Shown: positions 1,969 to 22,637, counted from the stretch's first letter. The stretch: 32,576 nucleotides of DNA from Bacteroidales bacterium (GCA_028703095.1 JAQVNO010000012.1:1-32576); one strand, 5' to 3'. The notes: generated by a model not told the origin, from the letters alone. Numbers and translations: made by a program.

Positions 1969-2691
1969 ATGACGGCACATACTTACGGTAAACTTTTCCT
2001 CATTCCTACTTTTATAGGCAGCAAAGACATCAACCGGTGTATCCCTGCTTTTAATATTTCGATCATTCAAAGTTTATCATTTTTTATAGTAGAAGAGTTA
2101 CGTAGTGCCCGTCGATTTTTGCGTAGGCTAGACCCGGAATTTCCAATTGACAACACTAATTTTCAAATACTCAACGAGCATACAACCCAAATCAACGCTG
2201 AAGAAATGCTCTTTCCCATACTTTCCGGTCATGACATGGGCTTGCTTTCCGAAGCCGGATTACCTTGCATCGCCGACCCGGGAGCTGCCATTGTCTTAGC
2301 AGCACAACAAAAGGGAATAAGAGTCATGCCATTAATTGGACCTTCTTCCATTTTTATGGCATTAATGGCATCCGGACTATCCGGACAAAATTTTGCTTTT
2401 CACGGTTATTTGCCAACAGAAAAACATGCATTGGCAAGTAAACTTCACACATTAGAACTTCTTTCGGAAAAACACAGACAAGCACAAATATTCATGGAAA
2501 CACCTTATCGCAATATGCAGATGTTGGATTGTTTATTAAAAACATGCTCCCCCTCTACTTTTCTCTGTATCGCCGTTAATCTGACAATGCCGGATGAATG
2601 TATTAAAACACAAACCATTGGAGAATGGAATCGAAGCACACTTCCGGAACTACACAAAAAACCGGCTATTTTTGTTTTACAAAAATATTAG
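1969..2691 (+). CDS. RsmI-like SAM-dependent methyltransferase (tetrapyrrole methylase fold)
   Basis: Member of the tetrapyrrole-methylase superfamily most like RsmI, the enzyme that 2'-O-methylates C1402 of 16S rRNA. The 240 residues hold the family blocks SEAGLPCIADPGA (94-106) and LIGPSSIFMALMASG (122-136), then a FHGYLP block. The N-terminal motif is divergent from classical RsmI (LIPTFIGSKDI at 11-21). Bacteroidota commonly carry this shorter form, sometimes beside a canonical rsmI, so the exact substrate is uncertain. It starts 4 bp after the sufC stop, so the two are probably co-transcribed. Its TAG stop overlaps the TAA of the convergent gene at 2688. Confidence 0.8.
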   Translation: MTAHTYGKLFLIPTFIGSKDINRCIPAFNISIIQSLSFFIVEELRSARRFLRRLDPEFPIDNTNFQILNEHTTQINAEEMLFPILSGHDMGLLSEAGLPCIADPGAAIVLAAQQKGIRVMPLIGPSSIFMALMASGLSGQNFAFHGYLPTEKHALASKLHTLELLSEKHRQAQIFMETPYRNMQMLDCLLKTCSPSTFLCIAVNLTMPDECIKTQTIGEWNRSTLPELHKKPAIFVLQKY

Positions 2692-4334
2692 TTCTTCTTT
2701 TTTACCCGTTTTAGCACCAATAAATTCATTGCATTATTTTCCATGTTTTCTACCTCATTTCTCACAAATCGCAATACTTGATCGTAATACAAAACAATAA
2801 CGGGAGCATCTTCCATCACTAATTTATCCATTTTTCGATACAAATCCATACGTACACTATCATTGATCGTCCGTTGTGATTGTTCATACCATTTATCAAA
2901 CTGAGGATTAATATAATGTGTATAATTAGGTCCCTGTGGACAAAAATTTTTAGAATAGAATAGCGACATATAATTCTCAGCATCCGGATAATCAGCAATC
3001 CATGAACCTCTGAAAAAAGGTAATTCCGATTTAGCAATCATCTGACGTTGTGTTCCTGACTGTAACTTAGAAATCTTAATTTTAAAGCCTATTTGTTCCA
3101 ATTCATACGCCATATATTGTACTATATCCATATAGCTTTCCGAGACAGAAATTGTAATTATCGGCAACCCTATGCCGTTGGGATAACCGGCAGCCGCCAT
3201 TAAAGCACGCGCTTTCTCCGGATTATACACATATCCATAGGTGTTATTGGTATCGAATGGAGGTAAATCATAGGGTATCATGCCATAACATCCAGGTTTC
3301 CCAATATTGCTTCTGAGGAAACGCAACATTTTTTTTCTATCAAAACCATAGTTTAATGCTTGTCGTATTTCTTTGATTAAAAGGGGATTGTTTTTTGCGT
3401 TTTCTTGATTTTTATCCATTAAAAAACCTAAATACTCTGTATTTAAGTAAGGCATCGTAAGCATGTACATATGTTTGTTATAAACAGGATTCAAACGACC
3501 ATCTTTTGTTAACAATTCATCTTTATAAGAAGCATCCAATCCGGACATAAAGTCAAGGTTTCCTTTTACAAATTCCATGAATACAGACTGTTTATCAATA
3601 ATAAAAGAAACCGAAATTGCATCTAGATAAGGAAGTCGATTGTTTCCTTCATATTCAAAATAATTCGGATTTTTAAGCATTACCAATTTTAAGCCTTCTT
3701 TCCATGTTTTAAACATAAAAGGTCCTGTACCTACCGGATATTTACGAAAATCTTTTTGATATTTTTCAACTACTTCATATGGTACAACGGAACAATATTG
3801 CATACTCAATAATCCAAGAAGAGGAGGAAAACTTTCTGTTAGACGTAACACAAAAGTAGTATCATTTAAATCAAAAAATGCATATTCTCCTTGATCATTG
3901 GTGTCCACCATATTAAATATCCAAGTTCCCGGAGATGCAACTTTTTTATCAACTATACGCTTAAAGCTATACACCACATCGGAAGCAAGCATTTTTCGTT
4001 TACTTTCGGGAAAAGTAAAAAAATCAGTATTATGAAAATATACATCATCCCTTAAATAAAAAGTATAGGTTTTCCCGTCTTCTGAAATAGTCCATGATTT
4101 TGCAAGACAAGGACGAATCCTTAATTGACTGTCTATCTGCACTAATCCATTATACAATTGGTTACACGCCCAGATATTTGCCTGATCTTTAGCAAAAGCA
4201 GGGTCTAATGAGGTAATCCCTGCCGATTCATTGTAGCGAAAAACAGTTCTATTTTCTTTATTTTCCGAATTGTTACAAGCATAAAAAAAAATAATTATAC
4301 TGAAAATAACACATAAAATATACTTATCCTTCAT
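2688..4334 (-). CDS. Family 5 extracellular solute-binding lipoprotein (OppA/DppA-like)
   Basis: Periplasm-facing lipoprotein of solute-binding protein family 5, usually the peptide or nickel capture subunit of an ABC importer. From the ATG at 4334 it has 548 residues. A hydrophobic signal ends in a lipobox with Cys20 (FFYAC). The mature start has the family's FRYNESAGITSLDPAFAKD pattern, then a YTFYLRDDVYFHNTD strand and a DRKKMLR helix, and the full two-lobed length is present. An upstream ATG at 4394 is rejected because it overlaps kdsC and buries the signal. It begins 1 bp after the kdsC stop, implying translational coupling. No permease or ATPase genes are nearby, so its transporter partner must be elsewhere or it acts as an orphan. 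Confidence 0.9.
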   Translation of the reverse strand: MKDKYILCVIFSIIIFFYACNNSENKENRTVFRYNESAGITSLDPAFAKDQANIWACNQLYNGLVQIDSQLRIRPCLAKSWTISEDGKTYTFYLRDDVYFHNTDFFTFPESKRKMLASDVVYSFKRIVDKKVASPGTWIFNMVDTNDQGEYAFFDLNDTTFVLRLTESFPPLLGLLSMQYCSVVPYEVVEKYQKDFRKYPVGTGPFMFKTWKEGLKLVMLKNPNYFEYEGNNRLPYLDAISVSFIIDKQSVFMEFVKGNLDFMSGLDASYKDELLTKDGRLNPVYNKHMYMLTMPYLNTEYLGFLMDKNQENAKNNPLLIKEIRQALNYGFDRKKMLRFLRSNIGKPGCYGMIPYDLPPFDTNNTYGYVYNPEKARALMAAAGYPNGIGLPIITISVSESYMDIVQYMAYELEQIGFKIKISKLQSGTQRQMIAKSELPFFRGSWIADYPDAENYMSLFYSKNFCPQGPNYTHYINPQFDKWYEQSQRTINDSVRMDLYRKMDKLVMEDAPVIVLYYDQVLRFVRNEVENMENNAMNLLVLKRVKKKN

Positions 4335-4335
4335 G

Positions 4336-4857
4336 TTACCAAATACTTGCCCCATTACGAAACCAATTACCTTGCAAACGCATGGTATGTTCAATCACAT
4401 CTCTCACACAGCCTTCCCCTCCCTTAAATGAAGAAATGTAGTCCGAAATAGTTTGAATTTCTATAGCAGCATCCTGAGGACATGCTTTTACACCCACTAA
4501 TTTCATTACTTCATAATCAGGAATGTCATCACCCATAAACAAAACTTCTTTATTTTTTAATTTGTTTGTTTCCAAATATTCATTATACACTGTAACCTTA
4601 TCGGATACTTTTAGAAAAATATCCATTCCTTCAAATATATTATAGCGTTTTTTCATGCCTTCGGAATAGCCACCTGAAATAACACAAACTCTATAACCTT
4701 GTTTTAATGCATATTGAATAGCGTAACCATCTTTCACATTCGTATTTCTAATTTGATCTCCGTTGCTTGCTACCCATACCTTACCATCACTTAAAACTCC
4801 ATCAAAATCAAAAATGAATGTTGTAATATTTTTTAATTTCTCTTTATAACTTAGCAT
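4336..4857 (-). CDS. kdsC: 3-deoxy-D-manno-octulosonate 8-phosphate phosphatase (KdsC)
   Basis: HAD-superfamily phosphatase that converts Kdo-8-phosphate to Kdo for the inner core of lipopolysaccharide. From the ATG at 4857 it is 173 residues, the normal KdsC size without a cap domain. HAD motif I is FDFDGVLSDG (nucleophile and acid Asp pair), motif II is the Ser of VISGGYSEG, motif III is the Lys of the KVSDK segment, and motif IV is MGDDIPD. The start at 4857 is chosen because a TACTTTTG promoter lies between it and the longer frame beginning at 4911. The gene leads a two-gene unit with the solute-binding lipoprotein. lpxK elsewhere in the window serves the same lipid A/Kdo pathway. Confidence 0.93.
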   Translation of the reverse strand: MLSYKEKLKNITTFIFDFDGVLSDGKVWVASNGDQIRNTNVKDGYAIQYALKQGYRVCVISGGYSEGMKKRYNIFEGMDIFLKVSDKVTVYNEYLETNKLKNKEVLFMGDDIPDYEVMKLVGVKACPQDAAIEIQTISDYISSFKGGEGCVRDVIEHTMRLQGNWFRNGASIW

Positions 4858-4880
4858 GTAATTGTCTTTTATTTCATTTG

Positions 4881-4888
4881 CAAAAGTA
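4881..4888 (-). promoter_or_regulatory. Bacteroidota -7 promoter element for kdsC
   Basis: On the minus strand this reads TACTTTTG, an exact TAnnTTTG match, 23 nt before the kdsC ATG at 4857. It fixes the start of kdsC and probably drives the downstream solute-binding lipoprotein too. Confidence 0.65.
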
Positions 4889-5101
4889 CAAAATTTTAAC
4901 ATACCTCTCATTAATTTCGTTACAAAGTAGTAAATATTCTATTTTTTCAAGCAAATATAAACAAGAAAAAAGTATTTTTTTTTTACATCTTATTAAGCAA
5001 AATTATATCATTTTGTTTATCTTATATTTACCATTATATATTATATCAAAGAAAACTGAGAATATTTTTGTCAAATGTAAGAAACATAATAATATTTTTA
5101 G
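4889..5101. other. AT-rich divergent intergenic region
   Basis: The full gap between the kdsC start (4857) and the infC ATG (5190) is 332 bp. This core part is very AT-rich with T-runs (4972-4983) and separates two divergent promoters. I see no gene, RNA or clear operator in it. Confidence 0.6.
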
Positions 5102-5109
5102 TATTTTTG
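5102..5109 (+). promoter_or_regulatory. Bacteroidota -7 promoter element for the infC operon
   Basis: TATTTTTG matches TAnnTTTG. It lies 53 nt before the candidate AUA start and 80 nt before the first ATG of infC, giving a longer leader than for the other genes here. Confidence 0.6.
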
Positions 5110-5148
5110 CAAGCTAAAATTTTTACATAAAATTGTTTAACTAAAGAT

Positions 5149-5153
5149 AGGAG
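5149..5153 (+). promoter_or_regulatory. Shine-Dalgarno-like site upstream of a candidate AUA start of infC
   Basis: AGGAG stands 9 nt before an in-frame ATA at 5163. Strong Shine-Dalgarno sites are uncommon in this window, and this one is 36 nt from the ATG at 5190, too far to serve it. It therefore favours initiation at the ATA. Confidence 0.5.
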
Positions 5154-5189
5154 ACACATACTATAGCTGCGAACTTTAATAGATCCGGA

Positions 5190-5723
5190 ATGAGGGGGCA
5201 TAGAAGCTTTCATAAAAAAGAACAACCTCATAAAATCAACAAAGAAATAACCTCATTGGTTGTTCGAATTATCATTGAAAATGGAGAATCCAAAATAGTT
5301 TCATTAAAAGAAGCATTAGAATTAGCAAATCAACTTGATTTAGATTTAGTGGAAATTTCGCCACAGACAAATCCTCCGGTTTGTAAAATAATGGATTATC
5401 AAAAATTTCTGTATAATTTAAAGAAAAAACAAAAAGACATTAAAGCTAAAACAGCCAAAGTTACCATTAAAGAAATTCGATTAGGACCAAACACTGATGA
5501 TCATGATTTCAATTTTAAAGTAAAGCATGCTATTGGATTTCTTGAAGAAGGGAACAAAGTAAAAGTGGATGTGTTTTTTAAAGGTCGTTCCATCATGTAC
5601 AAAGAGCAAGGTGAAGAGATGTTGATGCGATTCGCCAAAGCATGCGAAGAAGTTGGGAAACCCGACCAAATGCCTAAGTTAGAAGGCAAAAGAATGATAT
5701 TGATTCTTTCTCCTAAGAAATAA
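5190..5723 (+). CDS. infC: Translation initiation factor IF-3
   Basis: Binds the 30S subunit, prevents premature 50S joining and checks start-codon pairing. From the ATG at 5190 it is 177 residues. The N-domain carries [28 protein letters not shown] and the basic linker [10 protein letters not shown]. The C-domain carries [29 protein letters not shown] and a final [14 protein letters not shown]. The frame stays open upstream to an ATA at 5163 with AGGAG 9 nt before it, which would add nine residues (IAANFNRSG) resembling the N-terminus of many IF-3 proteins. infC is known in other bacteria for rare AUU/AUA-type starts, so 5163 may be the true start. First gene of the infC-rpmI-rplT operon. 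Confidence 0.97.
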
Positions 5724-5767
5724 GAAATTGATTGTAAACACTATAAATAACCATTAAATTAAGCAAA

Positions 5768-5962
5768 ATGCCAAAAGTAAAGACAAAAGCCAGTGCAAAA
5801 AAAAGATTTTCTTTTACAGGTACCGGCAAAATTAAAAGAAGACATGCCTACAAAAGTCATATTTTGACTAAAAAATCTACCAAACGTAAACGTAATTTAG
5901 GATACGTTACCATTGTAGACAAAACAAATACAAAAGCTGTAAAGCAAATGTTAAATTGTTAA
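5768..5962 (+). CDS. rpmI: 50S ribosomal protein L35
   Basis: Small basic protein of the large ribosomal subunit, 64 residues as usual. It begins with the family's [14 protein letters not shown] block, followed by [16 protein letters not shown] and KSTKRKRNL. It sits 44 bp after infC and before rplT, in the conserved operon order. The ATG is preceded by an A-rich stretch rather than a Shine-Dalgarno site. Confidence 0.97.
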
Positions 5963-6467: not shown

Positions 6468-7331
6468 TTAATCTAAATATTCATAATACGTCGTTGAAGA
6501 AAATTCTTGTCCCATGAAGGTTTGTGTTGTTTTTTGTTCTGTAGGCCATTTGCCATCATACACATAAGAATAAGTAACTGTTGAACTAAATGACTGCCCT
6601 GCTATTGTTGCGGTTAAAGTTCCTGATAATGGATTATTTACTGATAAAGCCATTGCGTTTTCACTACTAAATAAACCATCGTAAAATGGGTTAATATTTG
6701 CATCATAAGTATAAGCAGTTGAATATGAAACATCTTCATCAATTAGTTTTTCGCTAATTACATTGTCTCCATCATATGTAAATTCTATGGTTGACACATA
6801 GGTTGTGCTTTTATGAATTCTTTCCATCATCTTATCAAGTAATGGTTTTGATACAAATAAACGTAAGGCACGGGACAATAACCTTTGGTGAGAAACACTC
6901 TTTAGCGTTTCATAGTCTTGCTCATAACTAGTCATTATTAATTTTATGATTTTTTTTCCGTCATGAACTACTTCGATGCTTTCGGTTAATTCGTTGTCTT
7001 TATTATATGCTTCAACCTTTGACAAAGATGCTTTGTCATAAATAAAAGAAACATACCCATGATCAACGCCGAAATAATAATCCGTAATTTTTACAACTTG
7101 TTTTTTGTCGTATTCAAATAATTGATATTCATCTTGCGATGTTCCATAAGCTACCTTGGTAAGCAAATTTTTATCCCATGTCCATGATTCGGAAAGCACT
7201 TTTGAGCCTTCTTGGTCGTAATAAATTTTACTGATTTTTTCTTTAGGATTGTAAACCCCGTCTTTATCACATGATGTGACAAACATAAGTAAGAGCACGG
7301 ATGCTGCTGTTAAAATAAGATACTTTTTCAT
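6468..7331 (-). CDS. Putative surface lipoprotein, tandem paralog A
   Basis: Function not recognised. The 287-residue product has a lipoprotein signal (MKKYLILTAASVLLLMFVTSC, Cys21), so it should be anchored in the envelope. The mature part is made of short beta-rich segments of YD-repeat flavour: KISKIYY, SWTWDKNLLTKVAY, FEYDKKQVVKI, FTYDGDNVISE, YTYDANINPFYD, YVYDGKWPTEQ. This resembles Bacteroidota lipoproteins with DUF4595-like repeats. The neighbour at 7474-8352 is clearly homologous along its full length, showing tandem duplication. A TATATTTG promoter lies 48 nt upstream and the shared terminator at 6420-6450 follows, so it is probably monocistronic. Confidence 0.82.
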   Translation of the reverse strand: MKKYLILTAASVLLLMFVTSCDKDGVYNPKEKISKIYYDQEGSKVLSESWTWDKNLLTKVAYGTSQDEYQLFEYDKKQVVKITDYYFGVDHGYVSFIYDKASLSKVEAYNKDNELTESIEVVHDGKKIIKLIMTSYEQDYETLKSVSHQRLLSRALRLFVSKPLLDKMMERIHKSTTYVSTIEFTYDGDNVISEKLIDEDVSYSTAYTYDANINPFYDGLFSSENAMALSVNNPLSGTLTATIAGQSFSSTVTYSYVYDGKWPTEQKTTQTFMGQEFSSTTYYEYLD

Positions 7332-7473: not shown

Positions 7474-8352
7474 TTATTCATATTCGTAAAAAGTAGTTAT
7501 AGTATATGTATAATATTCATCTTCATAAATATATGTTTGCTGTGTTGGCCAATTACCCTCATACACATAGGTGTAATTTTGAATAGAGGAATAACCACTT
7601 GATGACACTGCTTCAGATTGAATATTATTTTCCGATAAAGCTAAAACCGGATTATCTCCTGAAACAAACAAAGCATCGTAAAAAGGATTCTTCTTATCGT
7701 CATAGGTATAAGATAGATTATAGAAAGATTCCCCTGTATTATATATAATGGATATAATGTTATTTCCATCGTATGTTAAATCATAGGTTTGTATTACAGC
7801 TTTACTTTTTTGAATATTTTCGGTTATTCTTTTTACTATAGGTTCAGATAGAAAAAGACGCATAATACGTGCAAATGAGTTTGAATTTTTAATCGTTTTT
7901 TCAGATGCATAGTCATAGTCATATTCATCATATTCTGCCACTATACTTATTTTTGTAATTTTATTACCATCGTATGTAAAGTTAGCCGTAAATGCGAGTT
8001 CTCCACCATCATAATATTCCATTTTTTCTAATTCCTTTTTACCGCCTAATAAGGAAGTTTTATAAACAAATGACATATAATAATACTCTCCGATAACGCC
8101 TATCAATTGATTTCCATCGTACTCCATTACCGCACTTTCGCCTTCTTGGATATAGTTGATTTTTACAAGCTTGCCTCCTTCCCATGTCCAAATTTGGTCA
8201 ATCATCTTACCGGAGGTTTCACCTTCAGCACTGTATTGATAGTAAATTTTACTGATTTTTTGTCCGGGCTTATACATCCCTTCTTTATCGCAGGATGTAA
8301 TTAATACTACGGATAAAATTAAAACTGATGTTAAAATAATGTACTTTTTCAT
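7474..8352 (-). CDS. Putative surface lipoprotein, tandem paralog B
   Basis: Paralog of the gene at 6468-7331, function unknown. The 292 residues start with a lipoprotein signal (MKKYIILTSVLILSVVLITSC, Cys21). Blocks shared with the other copy, in the same order, are KISKIYY, WTWEGGKLVKINY, RLFLSEPIVKRI, LTYDGNNIISI, YTYDDKKNPFYDALF and YVYEGNWPTQQ. The spacing regions have diverged, so the duplication is not recent. Tyr and Asp/Glu are frequent. It has its own TATTTTTG promoter and terminator. No SusC/SusD genes are nearby, so a glycan-uptake role has no contextual support. Confidence 0.82.
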   Translation of the reverse strand: MKKYIILTSVLILSVVLITSCDKEGMYKPGQKISKIYYQYSAEGETSGKMIDQIWTWEGGKLVKINYIQEGESAVMEYDGNQLIGVIGEYYYMSFVYKTSLLGGKKELEKMEYYDGGELAFTANFTYDGNKITKISIVAEYDEYDYDYASEKTIKNSNSFARIMRLFLSEPIVKRITENIQKSKAVIQTYDLTYDGNNIISIIYNTGESFYNLSYTYDDKKNPFYDALFVSGDNPVLALSENNIQSEAVSSSGYSSIQNYTYVYEGNWPTQQTYIYEDEYYTYTITTFYEYE

Positions 8353-17008: not shown

Positions 17009-18409
17009 CTAAAAACTATATTTCAGGTTAAGCATAAACATATTGTAATCTTTCAAATTAGCAAACATATTGTCCCCTTTGCCGAAAAAGAATACTGATG
17101 ACAGGTTTATTTCCACATCAGCAGTTGCTTTGTAAAAAATTTGCGGATTATAAACAATCGCATAGTTATCTTTTACTGCCTTCCAATCGGTTACTATAAA
17201 AGCGCCACCAATAGGAACAATTTTGAGTCTTTCGTTGAAAAAGCTTTTGTCATACTGCAAAAAGAAGTAATCATTTAGGTTTTCACTCCCTTTCTCGTGA
17301 ATAAAACCATGTAGGTATTGTAAATTTAAATAAGATCCATCGCTAAAAAGATAATCGACCCCAACAACAAATTTAACATATGGTTTGTTTTTTTCTAAAA
17401 GGATTGAATCCTGTGTAACAGGTACGGGAGACATCGGATAAAAGGCGGATAAATCATTTGTCATAATTACATCTTTTTCGGGTAAAAACATTGCTGCTTC
17501 TCCCCAAAATCCAATACCAAAAACACTTGTTGAAAAGTCGGCACCTATGATATGATTTCTTGTGTACGATAATTGTGAATTTATATTAGTCCCACCAGAC
17601 GTATCAACAGGGATAAAAGTATTTCGGGTAGATACAGGGAGTCCATCCCGCCCCCAAATATAACTTAAGGAAAAATCAAATCCTTTTACCATACCTTTAA
17701 ATTTAAATCCCGCAGTAGAACTTTCACCTAAATTATATTTCGACATAAGTAAGGTATCTGATAAACCTCTTAATGTCATTCCTTTGGGCAATTCCATCGT
17801 CGGATATAAAGCGTTTGCAAAAACTCCAAGAGGCAAATTAGCAGGCTGAAAAAATGGGATAAAAACACCTTGCAATGAAAAATTATTGTTTATATAATAA
17901 TTCAGATTAATAGCATCCGATGCACGATGACGACCAAAATCCAAAATATCTTCCATGTCATACGGATTAAGATTGTCTGTTGGATTTAACTTGTCTGCGG
18001 TGCCCCATGTAATACGCTGACGTCCTATTTTTAAATCCAAATTTTTTGTCAGAAATCCTATAACCTGAATATAAGCTTCCCTGATTTCAATATTGTAAGG
18101 ATCAATAATTCCTTTGTTATACAAGTCGCTTGATTTTGCGATATTTGGAAGTCCAATATTTCGCAACCATACTTCACTATGAAATTTTGATTTTTTTTCA
18201 ATTTTCTTATCAAGTTTTAAAGTCAGGCGGTTTTCATTCCATACCCAATCATTATCTTTTTTTAATAAAAAACGCTCATCTGTAAGGAATTCACCTGAAA
18301 TTACAAATTTCGGTTCCTCTTGTAGCTCCTGCGATACAATTGTATCTTGCCCTCTGGCGATTAAAGTACCTACCAGAAGAATAATTGAGAACAAAGTTGT
18401 TTTTTTCAT
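17009..18409 (-). CDS. DUF1302-like outer-membrane beta-barrel protein
   Basis: Exported 466-residue protein with a signal peptide (MKKTTLFSIILLVGTLIARGQ). It has strong beta-barrel character: alternating strands such as KFVVGVDYLFSDGSYLNLQYLHG, and a C-terminal strand ending KYSF with terminal Phe. The block KIGRQRITWGTADKLNPTDNLNPYD matches the pattern of DUF1302 proteins, which in proteobacteria sit with DUF1329 proteins and RND pumps. It probably forms the outer-membrane part of the cassette with the upstream LolA-like and RND genes. The ligand is unknown. It lies 37 bp after the DUF2141 gene and is the last gene of the minus-strand unit. Confidence 0.78.
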   Translation of the reverse strand: MKKTTLFSIILLVGTLIARGQDTIVSQELQEEPKFVISGEFLTDERFLLKKDNDWVWNENRLTLKLDKKIEKKSKFHSEVWLRNIGLPNIAKSSDLYNKGIIDPYNIEIREAYIQVIGFLTKNLDLKIGRQRITWGTADKLNPTDNLNPYDMEDILDFGRHRASDAINLNYYINNNFSLQGVFIPFFQPANLPLGVFANALYPTMELPKGMTLRGLSDTLLMSKYNLGESSTAGFKFKGMVKGFDFSLSYIWGRDGLPVSTRNTFIPVDTSGGTNINSQLSYTRNHIIGADFSTSVFGIGFWGEAAMFLPEKDVIMTNDLSAFYPMSPVPVTQDSILLEKNKPYVKFVVGVDYLFSDGSYLNLQYLHGFIHEKGSENLNDYFFLQYDKSFFNERLKIVPIGGAFIVTDWKAVKDNYAIVYNPQIFYKATADVEINLSSVFFFGKGDNMFANLKDYNMFMLNLKYSF

Positions 18410-18446
18410 AAATAATATATTTTTATATTTGATACAATTACATGGT

Positions 18447-18893
18447 TTATATATACCTTAATTTTGAAATGATTTTTTGCGTTTGCCCTTTTTCTAATGT
18501 AAATTTGAATGCGTTAAAAGAGGGTTTAAATATACCAGAATGATAAAAATTTGAAAAACCAAAACCTTCAAGGGGTATTCCCAAAAAATTGTAATTCATC
18601 TTATTGTCATTATTTTTATCGTCATGAACACAAATTCCATAAATTCCAGGCTCCAAAGTAAAACTCACCGTCAGTTCGCCATTTAACATACCAGTCTTTT
18701 CAAATATTTTTATCATAAATGGGTTCTCTTTCTCAAAAGAATTTTTATCTTTAAAAACACCAATTATTATCTGCCCCTGATTTGATTGGATGTTTGAAAT
18801 TTTAACTTCAACGTTTTGAGCGACTAAAGTGAACGAACAACCCATTAATATAAATAGGGAACAAACGCTTATATGTTTCTTTAGTAATAACAT
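18447..18893 (-). CDS. DUF2141 family exported protein
   Basis: Small secreted protein of 148 residues with an N-terminal signal; cleavage after VAQ or lipidation at Cys19 (LMGC) are both possible. The mature part follows the DUF2141 pattern: VEVKISNIQSNQGQIIIGVF, a SFTLEPGIYGICVHDDKNNDNKMN strand pair, and the hallmark NFLGIPLEGFGFSN. The family has a beta-sandwich look, is common in Bacteroidota and Proteobacteria, and has no assigned function. Position between the LolA-like gene (12 bp) and the DUF1302 gene (37 bp) makes it an envelope accessory of this cassette. Confidence 0.87.
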   Translation of the reverse strand: MLLLKKHISVCSLFILMGCSFTLVAQNVEVKISNIQSNQGQIIIGVFKDKNSFEKENPFMIKIFEKTGMLNGELTVSFTLEPGIYGICVHDDKNNDNKMNYNFLGIPLEGFGFSNFYHSGIFKPSFNAFKFTLEKGQTQKIISKLRYI

Positions 18894-18905
18894 GGCTTGA
18901 TTGAA

Positions 18906-19637
18906 TTAATCTTTTAATTTTCTTAAACTAAATTCATCATCTGTTAAACCTGTATCGTATTTTACTTCCGACATTTGCATTTTAGTTTTGTGATTGGTTT
19001 TTAAATCTGTCATTTGAATTTCTGTTGCACTCCAATAATTACCAACTTTTTTAAAAATGTATTTTGCTTCTTTTACTTTTTTCCCTCCTTTATCATAGTA
19101 TTCGATTAATTCGGGGTAAAAGTTAACTTTATTAATGTATATAATTAACTTAGAATAATCTGACGACGCTTTTGGAGTTAATTCAATGACAAATACATTT
19201 GTTTCTATTTTTAATAATTTAGGAGTATATTTATTTGAATATGATTTTGACTCCATGTCATCATATGAAAAATCAGTGCCTGCAAATTTTTGATTTTTTG
19301 CGCTTGAGGCAATTCGTCTTTCCTTGCCAAAAGCCGGCAAATACAAATACATCACGTCGTTAGGAAGTGATAAAACAGAAATTCCAGCTTGTGAAGCGGG
19401 AGAGGTAAAACGCATCAAACGTTTTTCGGTACCCTTTTGTTTTATGGTACTTTCGCGTGTTTCCTTATTGCCATTTTTACTAATTAAAACAACTTTCTGT
19501 TTCCCTACCATATCTTTGGAAGAAAACATTACATTATCCATTTTTTTTAGAATTGTTGATGCATCCTGTGCATTTACGTAAGTTCCAGCCAGAAGGAGGA
19601 CTGAACTTACTAAAAGTGAAAATGTCATTTTTTTCAT
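18906..19637 (-). CDS. LolA-like outer-membrane lipoprotein-sorting family protein
   Basis: Periplasmic protein of 243 residues with a cleavable signal (ending YVNAQ). The mature region matches the LolA-fold 'outer membrane lipoprotein-sorting protein' family (PF17131-type): TILKKMDNVMFSSKDMVGKQKVVLIS, KRLMRFTSPASQAGISVLSL, MYLYLPAFGKERRIASSAKNQ, FSYDDMES and the late SEVKYDTGLTDDEFSLRKL. These proteins form half-barrels able to shield hydrophobic ligands and are repeatedly found beside MMPL/RND pumps. Here it lies 31 bp after the RND gene. It is distinct from true LolA, which carries lipoproteins from LolCDE. Confidence 0.88.
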   Translation of the reverse strand: MKKMTFSLLVSSVLLLAGTYVNAQDASTILKKMDNVMFSSKDMVGKQKVVLISKNGNKETRESTIKQKGTEKRLMRFTSPASQAGISVLSLPNDVMYLYLPAFGKERRIASSAKNQKFAGTDFSYDDMESKSYSNKYTPKLLKIETNVFVIELTPKASSDYSKLIIYINKVNFYPELIEYYDKGGKKVKEAKYIFKKVGNYWSATEIQMTDLKTNHKTKMQMSEVKYDTGLTDDEFSLRKLKD

Positions 19638-19668
19638 ATTATTTTTATTTTTTTGAGTTAATATTTAG

Positions 19669-21942
19669 TTACTTACTTGTGATTTTCTTTTTTCTATTTA
19701 CAAAAATCAATACAGCTGGCAGTAATGTCAATGCGCCAAAACCTGAACTAATCATACTTATAGAAACTAACAATCCAAAATTTTGAAGGATTACTATTTG
19801 TGAGAATAATAACACCAAAAATCCAGCTGAAACCGACAATACATTAATAATTACGGCATTCCCACTTCCCAATATTGTATCTTCAATTGCCTGATTAACG
19901 TCACCTTTCTCCTTTAATGCATAATTAAAATGAGTAATTACATGTATTGAATAGTCAATGCCTATCCCAAGGGCAATACTTCCAACCAAAACAGTTACTA
20001 TATCAAGCGGAATTCCTGTAAATCCCATAAAACCAAAAAGGAAAATAATAGTGGCAATAATTGGAATAGTAGCATAAAGACCTTTTTTAAATGATTTAAA
20101 CATAAAACCAACAATAAGAAGCACCAAACACACTGCCAATAGTAAACTAGTTGCTTGGCTACGAATTATATTGCTATTGAGGCGATTATAAATATGTGGA
20201 AGTCCAGTTACTTCAATTTTACAATTTTCAGTGGAATTCTCTTTCGTAAATATATTCATATATTCCTCAAATTCTTCCGTTGCTGAGCTATTTATAGAAG
20301 CAAATTTTGACTGAATAATCCCCTCATCAAGGTCTTCATTAACAAGTTGCGACATAATATCTTGTCCATCCAATAAAAACCATAATTGCTCTATTTTAGC
20401 TCGTTCGTCTGGTATTTTTTTCCCTTCGCCCATAACATCATTCATTTCTGCCACTAAATCAGCTATTGATTGAGCAAATGTTATATCCTTAAATTTTTTC
20501 ATGTATACTTCTGTTTCATACATTACTTTTAAAACTTCAGGACTTTGCATATCTCCTTTAATAGAAACAAATACCGGCATTGAACCACCAAATTTCTTCT
20601 GCATAATATTTTCCGAAACTCTGGTAGGATTATCTTTCTTAAAATATTCCGTAATATTTGAATTAGTTTTAATTAAAAATGCCCCCCATATTCCTAATAC
20701 AATCACTACTAACCAAAAAGCGAAAGTGTATTTCGGATGTTTTATAAGAAGATTCACGATAGGTTTCAGCAGATACTTAGTAAGAATTGATTTTTTTTCA
20801 TGACTTGCTTTATTAATACGCTCATTATTAATTTTAGGTGTTTTTTTGTTAAACGAAAATACGGCAATAATAGCTGGGACAAAGGTTAATGATAATAGTA
20901 GAGAAATTGAAACACCAATTGCCGTAAACATGCCAAATTCGCGTATCATAGTAAGGTAAGAGCCAAAAATAAAAGACACAAATCCGACGGCAGTTGTCAA
21001 TGCGGCCAGAAACACAGGCAATGCTATGTATGTTATCGCCTTGATTAATACTTGTTTTGGGTCGTTTTCAATACTTTGATTAATACGGTTTATAACATGG
21101 ATAGAGTACGCACTGCCAATTGCAAGTAAAATGACTGGTATAATGCTGGAAATCAAATTAAATTCGTACCCCAACCAAGAGATGATGCCCACCGTCCATA
21201 TTACTGCAATCCCAGCAACAACCAATGGCAATACAACACCTTTTACGGAGCGAAAACTAAGTAATAATACTAAAATAATTACAATAAAAGCAATAGGAAT
21301 AAGCCATATCATATCGCCTATGATTATATCTGTCAAGTCATTTACCATGTTTGGCATACCAGCAAAATATAATTTTTCAGGCAAATCAATAGACTGCACT
21401 TTCTGTTTAACATCCCTCGCTACCATTTCCTTGTGGGCATCAGGAAGTAGGGTAAACATAATAAGTGTTGCGGTGCCATCTTCGGAAACAATAGAGCCTT
21501 TGTACATTTCTTTTGAAAATACATAGCTCCTTAAACTGTCTAATTTTTGTTTCGTATCAGGTAAATTATATTCATCAACCAGATTTCCTATTTCTATACC
21601 CCATTCGCTATTTTTAATATCAATAATATTTGTAAGACTGGTAACTGTCGAAACTCCATCAATTAGCTTTATACTATCTGTTATTTGGTGTATATGCGAT
21701 AAAACTTTCTTTGTAAAAATATTATCTGATTCCAAAATAACCATCCCAATATCATTACCCCCAAACTGAGTTCCCATTTTCTTATATAATATGGAAACGG
21801 AATCTGTATCAGGCAAAGAGCCCAATATGTCTGCATCAATTTTTAATGTTCTTGCCTGATACGCAAAAAATGCGGTCAATCCTACTACGACAATAATTAT
21901 TAGCCATTTTAGCTTAATTATTGATTCTGCAAATCGTCTCAT
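19669..21942 (-). CDS. RND/MMPL family transporter
   Basis: Inner-membrane pump of 757 residues from the ATG at 21942. It shows the MMPL/HpnN-like duplicated layout: one N-terminal helix (WLIIIVVVGLTAFFAY), a large periplasmic domain (about 35-210), five clustered helices, then a second helix (about 400), a second periplasmic domain and five more helices. A GSAYSIHVINRINQ segment in the first half is mirrored by GIDYSIHVITHFNY in the second. An upstream in-frame ATG (22029) is rejected because the promoter TATCTTTG (21987-21994) lies inside that extension. Substrates of related pumps are lipids or hydrophobic molecules; none can be read here. It heads the cassette behind tetR. Confidence 0.93.
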   Translation of the reverse strand: MRRFAESIIKLKWLIIIVVVGLTAFFAYQARTLKIDADILGSLPDTDSVSILYKKMGTQFGGNDIGMVILESDNIFTKKVLSHIHQITDSIKLIDGVSTVTSLTNIIDIKNSEWGIEIGNLVDEYNLPDTKQKLDSLRSYVFSKEMYKGSIVSEDGTATLIMFTLLPDAHKEMVARDVKQKVQSIDLPEKLYFAGMPNMVNDLTDIIIGDMIWLIPIAFIVIILVLLLSFRSVKGVVLPLVVAGIAVIWTVGIISWLGYEFNLISSIIPVILLAIGSAYSIHVINRINQSIENDPKQVLIKAITYIALPVFLAALTTAVGFVSFIFGSYLTMIREFGMFTAIGVSISLLLSLTFVPAIIAVFSFNKKTPKINNERINKASHEKKSILTKYLLKPIVNLLIKHPKYTFAFWLVVIVLGIWGAFLIKTNSNITEYFKKDNPTRVSENIMQKKFGGSMPVFVSIKGDMQSPEVLKVMYETEVYMKKFKDITFAQSIADLVAEMNDVMGEGKKIPDERAKIEQLWFLLDGQDIMSQLVNEDLDEGIIQSKFASINSSATEEFEEYMNIFTKENSTENCKIEVTGLPHIYNRLNSNIIRSQATSLLLAVCLVLLIVGFMFKSFKKGLYATIPIIATIIFLFGFMGFTGIPLDIVTVLVGSIALGIGIDYSIHVITHFNYALKEKGDVNQAIEDTILGSGNAVIINVLSVSAGFLVLLFSQIVILQNFGLLVSISMISSGFGALTLLPAVLIFVNRKKKITSK

Positions 21943-21986
21943 TGTTATAATTAATAATTGAATAAATCTTTTTTTAAAAATCAATG

Positions 21987-21994
21987 CAAAGATA
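21987..21994 (-). promoter_or_regulatory. Bacteroidota -7 promoter element for the RND gene
   Basis: Minus-strand TATCTTTG, an exact TAnnTTTG match, 44 nt before the ATG at 21942 and just downstream of an inverted repeat. It lets the transporter genes be transcribed separately from tetR. Confidence 0.65.
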
Positions 21995-22003
21995 ATAAAA
22001 TTA

Positions 22004-22030
22004 TTTGACCTATTTTGTTTTTTAGTCAAA
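22004..22030. promoter_or_regulatory. Candidate operator: TTTGAC / GTCAAA inverted repeat
   Basis: TTTGAC (22004-22009) and GTCAAA (22025-22030) are exact inverted arms separated by 15 bp. The centre lies about 36 bp upstream of the expected start of the RND transcript, over the -33 region, where a TetR-type repressor could block transcription. The arms are short, so chance is possible. Confidence 0.4.
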
Positions 22031-22049
22031 CTATTTTTAAAAAAAATAA

Positions 22050-22637
22050 TTATGGCAATTTTTGAGCTTTTAAACTGTTAATTATCATTGAAACAAGCTC
22101 ATCTAAAACACTTTCATATTCTTCATATTTATTTTGAAGAAATAAAGGAATTTCTATGCTGTTTAGCAGCATCATAATGATATTTACAGAAGGGATTATG
22201 TTATCAACATAAAGATACCCTTCCTTTTTCGCCTTTTTTAAAACAAAAATAATTTGGTTACGTTCAAATTCCGCAAAATCATCTCTAACATCTTTAACGA
22301 AGTAGTATTTATCAAAGAAATCAGCTTTTAGCGTTTCGTGATAGTTTACGGCTTTATGTAATAATTTTAAACGAGTAAGAATATACTCATTTATTATTAT
22401 TAGAGAGTCTTTATCACTATTTACTATTTTCAATAATTCTATCTTAACACTATTCAATTCATGCCTAAGCACCTCATTAAAAAGCTCTTCTTTGTTTCTA
22501 AAATAATAATAAAGACTGCCTTTAGCTTTATGTATATGTTTGGCTATCTCATCCATAGTGGTTTTATGAAAGCCATATTTAGAAAAATATTTTGTAGCCG
22601 ATTCAATAATTAAATGCTTAACGGTTAAATCCGACAT
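22050..22637 (-). CDS. TetR/AcrR family transcriptional regulator
   Basis: DNA-binding repressor-type regulator of 195 residues. The N-terminal helix-turn-helix is classical: LIIESATKYFSKYGFHKTTMDEIAKH followed by the recognition region KGSLYYYFRNKEELF (about 39-54). The C-terminal part is a variable helical ligand domain and gives no clue to the inducer. The gene lies directly upstream of, and in the same direction as, the RND transporter unit. It has its own TATATTTG promoter overlaid by a perfect inverted repeat, which suggests autoregulation and control of the downstream transport genes. Confidence 0.94.
   Translation of the reverse strand: MSDLTVKHLIIESATKYFSKYGFHKTTMDEIAKHIHKAKGSLYYYFRNKEELFNEVLRHELNSVKIELLKIVNSDKDSLIIINEYILTRLKLLHKAVNYHETLKADFFDKYYFVKDVRDDFAEFERNQIIFVLKKAKKEGYLYVDNIIPSVNIIMMLLNSIEIPLFLQNKYEEYESVLDELVSMIINSLKAQKLP

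Follow-up and report, generated by a model that had tools for sequence, protein, structure and literature searches.

What does a bacterium move across its envelope with a pump in the inner membrane, a carrier in the periplasm and a barrel in the outer membrane, all encoded in one short cassette, and where does the cargo come from? This question is raised by positions 17,009 to 22,637 of a 32,576-nucleotide stretch of DNA from a Bacteroidales bacterium (GCA_028703095.1, JAQVNO010000012.1:1-32576), below called the window, which is the entire contig C91 of a draft genome (2.29 Mb, 192 contigs, 93.9% complete). The first-pass annotation placed five same-strand genes there, encoding a TetR-family regulator, an MMPL/RND pump, a LolA-like carrier, a small exported DUF2141 protein and a DUF1302-type barrel, and this was confirmed: all five open reading frames (ORFs) are open, lie on the minus strand in that order with intergenic gaps of 12 to about 107 nt, and have a Pfam match above cut-off. 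In our view the cassette is rather probably a TetR-controlled RND-LolA-barrel exporter of an envelope lipid made by the cell itself, whose synthesis and export would be split over two co-regulated loci.

The cassette core consists of the RND transporter (19669..22029, minus strand; MMPL, 185.5 bits in two stretches), the periplasmic carrier LolA_like (PF17131; 18906..19637, minus strand; with a signal peptide; 172.7 bits) and the DUF1302 protein (17009..18409, minus strand; 34.6 bits, cut-off 23.2), preceded by the regulator (195 aa; 22050..22637, minus strand; TetR_N, 61.9 bits). An alignment of LolA_like was used to retrieve 80 loci from GTDB genomes; since these are the best of 578 candidates the sample leans to close relatives, and as several loci end at contig edges the gene counts are lower bounds. 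Within these limits, RND and DUF1302 genes were each present in 72 of the 80 loci (both in 65), TetR in 46 and DUF2141 in one. The usual order, TetR-RND-LolA-DUF1302, recurs in Bacteroidota, WOR-3, Cloacimonadota, Neomarinimicrobiota, KSB1, Myxococcota and others, TetR being the first gene in most related cassettes, and the loci nearest in sequence to that of the window come from Bacteroidales metagenome-assembled genomes. The tree of the RND proteins is a quick version only. The same core order in 65 loci indicates that the arrangement is more than chance. The first-pass annotation, which had called for a gene-neighbourhood search, was thus right about a path across the envelope (the RND, LolA_like and DUF1302 genes keep their order across phyla, and DUF1302 is modelled as an outer-membrane barrel) but is not supported as regards the five families as one conserved set, given the single DUF2141 locus. 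It is well supported by these gene orders that RND, LolA_like and DUF1302, with TetR, form a putative trans-envelope unit.

Variants of the unit were also found. In four loci (L091, L093, L096 and L097) the place of the RND beside LolA_like and a DUF1302-like gene is taken by a pair of FtsX permeases with an ABC ATPase, and the same ABC set accompanies LolA_like in L087-L090, L092 and L094; since carrier and barrel persist with either engine, the inner-membrane component is exchangeable. A natural RND-LolA_like fusion of 1026 aa (L045, 1959-5039) supports direct hand-over between the two proteins.

The nature of the cargo is suggested by the genes that relatives keep in the same operon. Seven lipid-gene profiles, derived mainly from the second locus described below (contig C84) and not from the scored loci, gave 36 matches in the 58 kb of cassette DNA that lie outside the core genes and 7 in the 528 kb beyond the cassettes. 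The fullest operons, L102 and L125, read TetR-RND-LolA-KASIII-methyltransferase-GNAT-SDR-LPLAT-patatin-GT2-GT2-DUF1302, with an additional GlsA-like acyltransferase in L102; the methyltransferase reaches 137 bits with the phthiotriol dimycocerosate methyltransferase model (cut-off 300). In L208 (G073:C80), from the same taxonomic family as the window genome, a serine palmitoyltransferase (668.6 bits, cut-off 640), an SDR and a GNAT gene (2633-5819) lie within the RND-LolA-DUF1302 operon, which also includes a CDP-alcohol phosphatidyltransferase gene and is interrupted by a transposase-like ORF. Such a gene set suggests that the cargo in the genome of L208 is sphingolipid-like. For the window genome such a cargo was rejected as unsupported, its best serine palmitoyltransferase score being 337 against the cut-off of 640 and the idea coming from L208 only. 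Of the hydrophobic cargoes first proposed (lipid, sterol-like molecule or pigment), a lipid is favoured by the operon genes; enzymes for sterols or pigments were not recognised in the cassette operons. KASIII homologues 46-49% identical to that of C84 were also seen beside TetR genes, but without the transporter core, in about nine genomes (L211-L219).

The window genome itself has such lipid genes at a second locus, on contig C84 (L095, G000:C84), with the order TetR-radical SAM-KASIII-LPLAT-patatin-GlsA type-GT2-GT2-DUF1302 and no RND. Its GlsA-type O-acyltransferase scores 270.1 bits with NF053697 (curated cut-off 260); no GlsB gene was recognised in C84. The two TetR proteins are 41% identical over 191 aa. 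At 707-2221 a radical SAM/SPASM protein runs in frame into 28 C-terminal LolA_like residues, which are identical to the LolA C-terminus of L102, L208 and L099 and lie beyond the natural end of radical SAM homologues. With this remnant and the missing RND, C84 looks like a KASIII-type operon that lost its RND and the greater part of its LolA, or had them replaced. Since the only RND of its kind and the only full LolA_like gene in the genome are those of the window, the window cassette is proposed to serve C84 in trans.

A shared regulatory site connects the two loci. Upstream regions of related cassettes contain the motif TTTG(T)AC-N15-GT(A)CAAA, whose core is AAAACAA; it precedes TetR and often recurs in the gap that follows the TetR gene. 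In the window an inverted repeat of this type (TTTGAC-N15-GTCAAA, AAAACAA core; 22004..22030, minus strand) lies between the TetR gene and the probable start of the RND. A matrix derived from ten other cassettes gave the window site a score of 19.3 (next best independent site in the 32 kb, 8.8; Markov null maxima, 10-18 per window) and the two C84 sites 33.1 and 15.3. In the whole genome the consensus pattern has exactly three matches, C91 22004-22026 and two in C84, and the reversed control none. In held-out loci (a set that includes the window and C84) the 24 kb next to the ends of TetR genes contained 17 sites, against 3 in 565 kb elsewhere. The site was present in only 12 of 41 held-out loci, which suggests that distant TetRs use other sites, and in 115 relatives the pattern gave 16 matches (one of them in the G044 cassette) against 15 for the reversed control, i.e. 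a background of about 0.14 per genome. The window and C84 cassettes therefore seem, as far as such patterns tell, to share a TetR operator-type switch, to which either regulator may bind, and the window TetR is a predicted autoregulator of its cassette.

How could such an exporter work? RND/MMPL proteins are powered by the proton gradient, and LolA folds shield acyl chains in the periplasm. In the proposed route the proton-driven RND would draw the lipid out of the inner membrane, LolA_like would ferry it across the periplasm, and the DUF1302 barrel would receive it at the outer membrane and insert it there or hand it to the surface, with DUF2141 as an optional exported helper. The enzymes that build the lipid would be encoded in the same operon in related Bacteroidales and at C84 in the window genome, where the window cassette would supply in trans a locus that had lost its own RND and LolA, both being under the same TetR operator type. 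Export is the probable direction, given that the set comes with synthesis genes and that, among RND proteins of solved structure, the MmpL4/5 exporters are nearest in sequence.

The individual proteins agree with these roles to different degrees. The RND ORF (786 aa) opens with TTG, and an in-frame ATG at residue 30 (about 21942) would give 757 aa; the latter start is likelier because relatives are about 750 aa long. Its product has 12 hydrophobic segments and matches the HAE3 RND model (TIGR00921) over the full length with 311.3 bits, under the cut-off of 351.9, while its scores with the hopanoid HpnN and sterol BstA models are all under cut-off (116.5/751.85, 69.3/1100 and, for BstA, 54.7/1400). 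Of the two relay positions, Asp is retained in the C-half only: there (GIDYSIH) it is conserved in 52 of 52 homologues, and in the N-half the window protein reads GSAY, with Ala in 43 of the 52. LolA_like also gives a weak match to DUF1329, limited to the C-terminal part of that family (25.8 bits, cut-off 23.1), the PF17131 fit being far better; its solved relatives are 3bk5, 9tp6, 3buu and 4z48. The DUF1302 model (pLDDT 74, moderate confidence) has many strands and an outer-membrane-type barrel, the best Foldseek matches of which are the porins OmpM1, OmpF and MOMP (E about 1e-12).

Several observations weigh against a cell-made lipid exported for C84. The window operon itself holds no biosynthetic gene, and many related cassettes contain transport genes only. 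C84 is a separate 9-kb contig without a housekeeping gene, and its tetranucleotide fit (0.814) is the lowest of the sample (others 0.83-0.93), so that mis-binning is possible. The DUF1302 of C84, which is 73% identical to that of the window, is sister in the tree to that of L125 and not to the window protein, and on this tree the idea that C84 arose by recent duplication of the window cassette was rejected. The operator pattern was defined after the sites had been seen, which leaves as independent evidence only the genome-wide count and, from the held-out tests, the site counts and matrix scores. Finally, named relatives are tied to exogenous hydrophobic compounds: AmeABCD of Castellaniella serves monoterpene tolerance and metabolism (PMC6394551), and PP_0765/0766, together with PP_2018/2019, are required for growth of P. 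putida on Tween 20 (PMC10866462).

The last of these points leads to the strongest rival explanation, in which the cassette handles compounds from outside, either by efflux of toxic membrane-active molecules or by taking up fatty acids or terpenes, in both cases induced via TetR when the compounds are present. Control by a TetR is a typical feature of efflux and transport-only cassettes are numerous; nevertheless, lipid-synthesis genes are strongly concentrated in the cassettes of the nearest relatives, where no catabolic genes were recognised, and the same operator-like site stands in front of the synthesis locus C84. On these two grounds a lipid made by the cell is favoured over an exogenous compound, and the latter explanation is considered rather unlikely. 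The first-pass annotation had reasoned that, with no biosynthetic gene adjacent, the cargo may be taken from outside; the premise is correct for the window operon, but the conclusion is weakened by the lipid-synthesis genes that relatives hold in the same operon.

A second explanation, that the cassette moves ordinary envelope lipids (phospholipids, or general outer-membrane homeostasis) and that C84 is unrelated or mis-binned, draws on the contig's separate status and slightly poor tetranucleotide fit, on the DUF1302 proteins that are not sisters and on the frequency of transport-only cassettes. It is improbable, given that all three operator-like sites of the genome fall in the window cassette and C84, that C84 lacks the RND and full LolA of which the window holds the only copies, and that the GC content of C84 (0.356) lies inside the range of the genome sample (0.31-0.38). 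Sorting of lipoproteins by LolA_like, with release by the RND or by a LolCDE-like ABC set in other cassettes, is suggested by the Pfam name of PF17131 and by the variant cassettes in which the FtsX/ABC set and a DUF1302-like gene accompany LolA_like, but it is highly improbable, since the LolA chaperone models of NCBIfam (LolA1 and LolA3; NF053572 and NF053579) are far from their cut-offs (20.8/100 and 30.1/83), the cassettes are accompanied by lipid enzymes and not by lipoproteins, and we know of no RND that releases lipoproteins.

Export of a cell-made lipid is therefore retained, and a wider proposal may tentatively be attached to it, which we hold to be possible but would not call probable. 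The cargo would be an acylated, glycosylated envelope lipid of an undescribed class, made by a KASIII/acyltransferase/patatin/GT2 pathway (in some genomes also sphingoid-type) and exported by a dedicated RND-LolA_like-DUF1302 system that is widespread in Bacteroidales and switched by TetR via one operator; in the genome studied here, a synthesis locus that lost its pump would depend on a separate locus for export.

The fifth gene of the cassette encodes the small exported DUF2141 protein (PF09912; 18447..18893, minus strand; 91.8 bits, cut-off 24.4). A survey of the first 60 related genomes and the present one, in which 18 full-length genes were read, placed DUF2141 in other cassettes at different positions: after LolA (L046), between DUF1302 and RND (L047) and after the RND-LolA fusion (L045); in L159, the one positive locus of the 80, it lies between TetR and RND. 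Other neighbours were an AcrB-type pump (L039), an OEP channel (L044), SCP2 proteins (L040 and L042) and 3-beta-HSD-like reductases (L032 and L036). None of the 30 top-scoring DUF2141 genes across the phylum adjoins a cassette, and a scan of the genome contigs with the DUF2141 protein alone as query gave no match. Core membership was rejected on the counts of one in 80 and none in 30, and DUF2141 seems, from its neighbourhoods, to be an optional accessory recruited more than once. Its AlphaFold model (pLDDT 90) is a beta-sandwich for which Foldseek found no confident fold match in the PDB, only weak transthyretin-like and CBM20-like ones, and a role as a deep-pocket lipid carrier is accordingly unsupported. 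In Sphingomonadales, DUF2141 adjoins crtG among carotenoid genes, with no function given (PMC5989583).

The cassette is flanked by the housekeeping genes sufE, chorismate synthase and dnaX on the opposite strand and is, for this reason, regarded as a self-contained unit. Scans of the window for sigma-70 promoters, terminators and the Bacteroidota promoter pattern gave nothing exceeding shuffled controls. Elsewhere in the window, two tandem lipoprotein-like genes (6468-7331 and 7474-8352) share 37% identity and have no Pfam match.

DUF1302 and LolA_like genes adjoin RND pumps in many genomes with no cargo assigned, and the lipid-pathway operons offer a concrete, testable hypothesis for it; the shared operator-like site provides a route to remaining members of the regulon. 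The wider question is how lipids that are neither LPS nor phospholipids reach the outer membrane of Gram-negative bacteria. In the open-access literature searched, no description was found of such a transport set combined with a lipid pathway, of the operator-like site shared between loci or of the split arrangement, and no paper was found there on LolA with MMPL, aryl polyene or LppX.

Among known systems, mycobacterial MmpL7-LppX and other MmpL exporters resemble the cassette in having an MMPL protein, a LolA/LolB-like carrier and genes for unusual acylated or glycosylated lipids in the same region, but they belong to the Actinobacterial envelope, lack a DUF1302 barrel and have an RND related only via the shared domain. 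The RND-LolA/DUF1329-DUF1302 theme as such is already known (PMC6394551, PMC10866462). AmeABCD of Castellaniella defragrans shares with the window a DUF1302 outer-membrane protein, a periplasmic protein of the DUF1329/LolA superfamily, a second periplasmic protein and an RND pump; however, its second periplasmic protein (AmeC) is YCF48-like, where the window has DUF2141 and no YCF48-like gene, and the set is linked to monoterpenes, with no lipid-synthesis genes reported in it (PMC6394551). The P. putida set PP_0765/PP_0766 and PP_2018/PP_2019, for which fitness data and co-folding led to the proposal of a transport system, likewise has a DUF1302 barrel, a carrier and an RND, but is divided between two separate loci, is linked to growth on Tween 20 and uses DUF1329 as its carrier (PMC10866462). 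The BstABC sterol transporter of Methylococcus also combines an RND with periplasmic and outer-membrane-associated proteins, and its genes adjoin those for making the lipid that these proteins bind (PMC10942540), but BstB and BstC come from other families and the window RND falls far short on the BstA model (54.7/1400 bits). Finally, C84 shares a GlsA-type O-acyltransferase with the GlsA/GlsB glycine lipid synthesis of Bacteroides (PMC12746155, PMC11631085), the difference being that the C84 gene is surrounded by KASIII, patatin and GT2 genes and has an export gene next to it.

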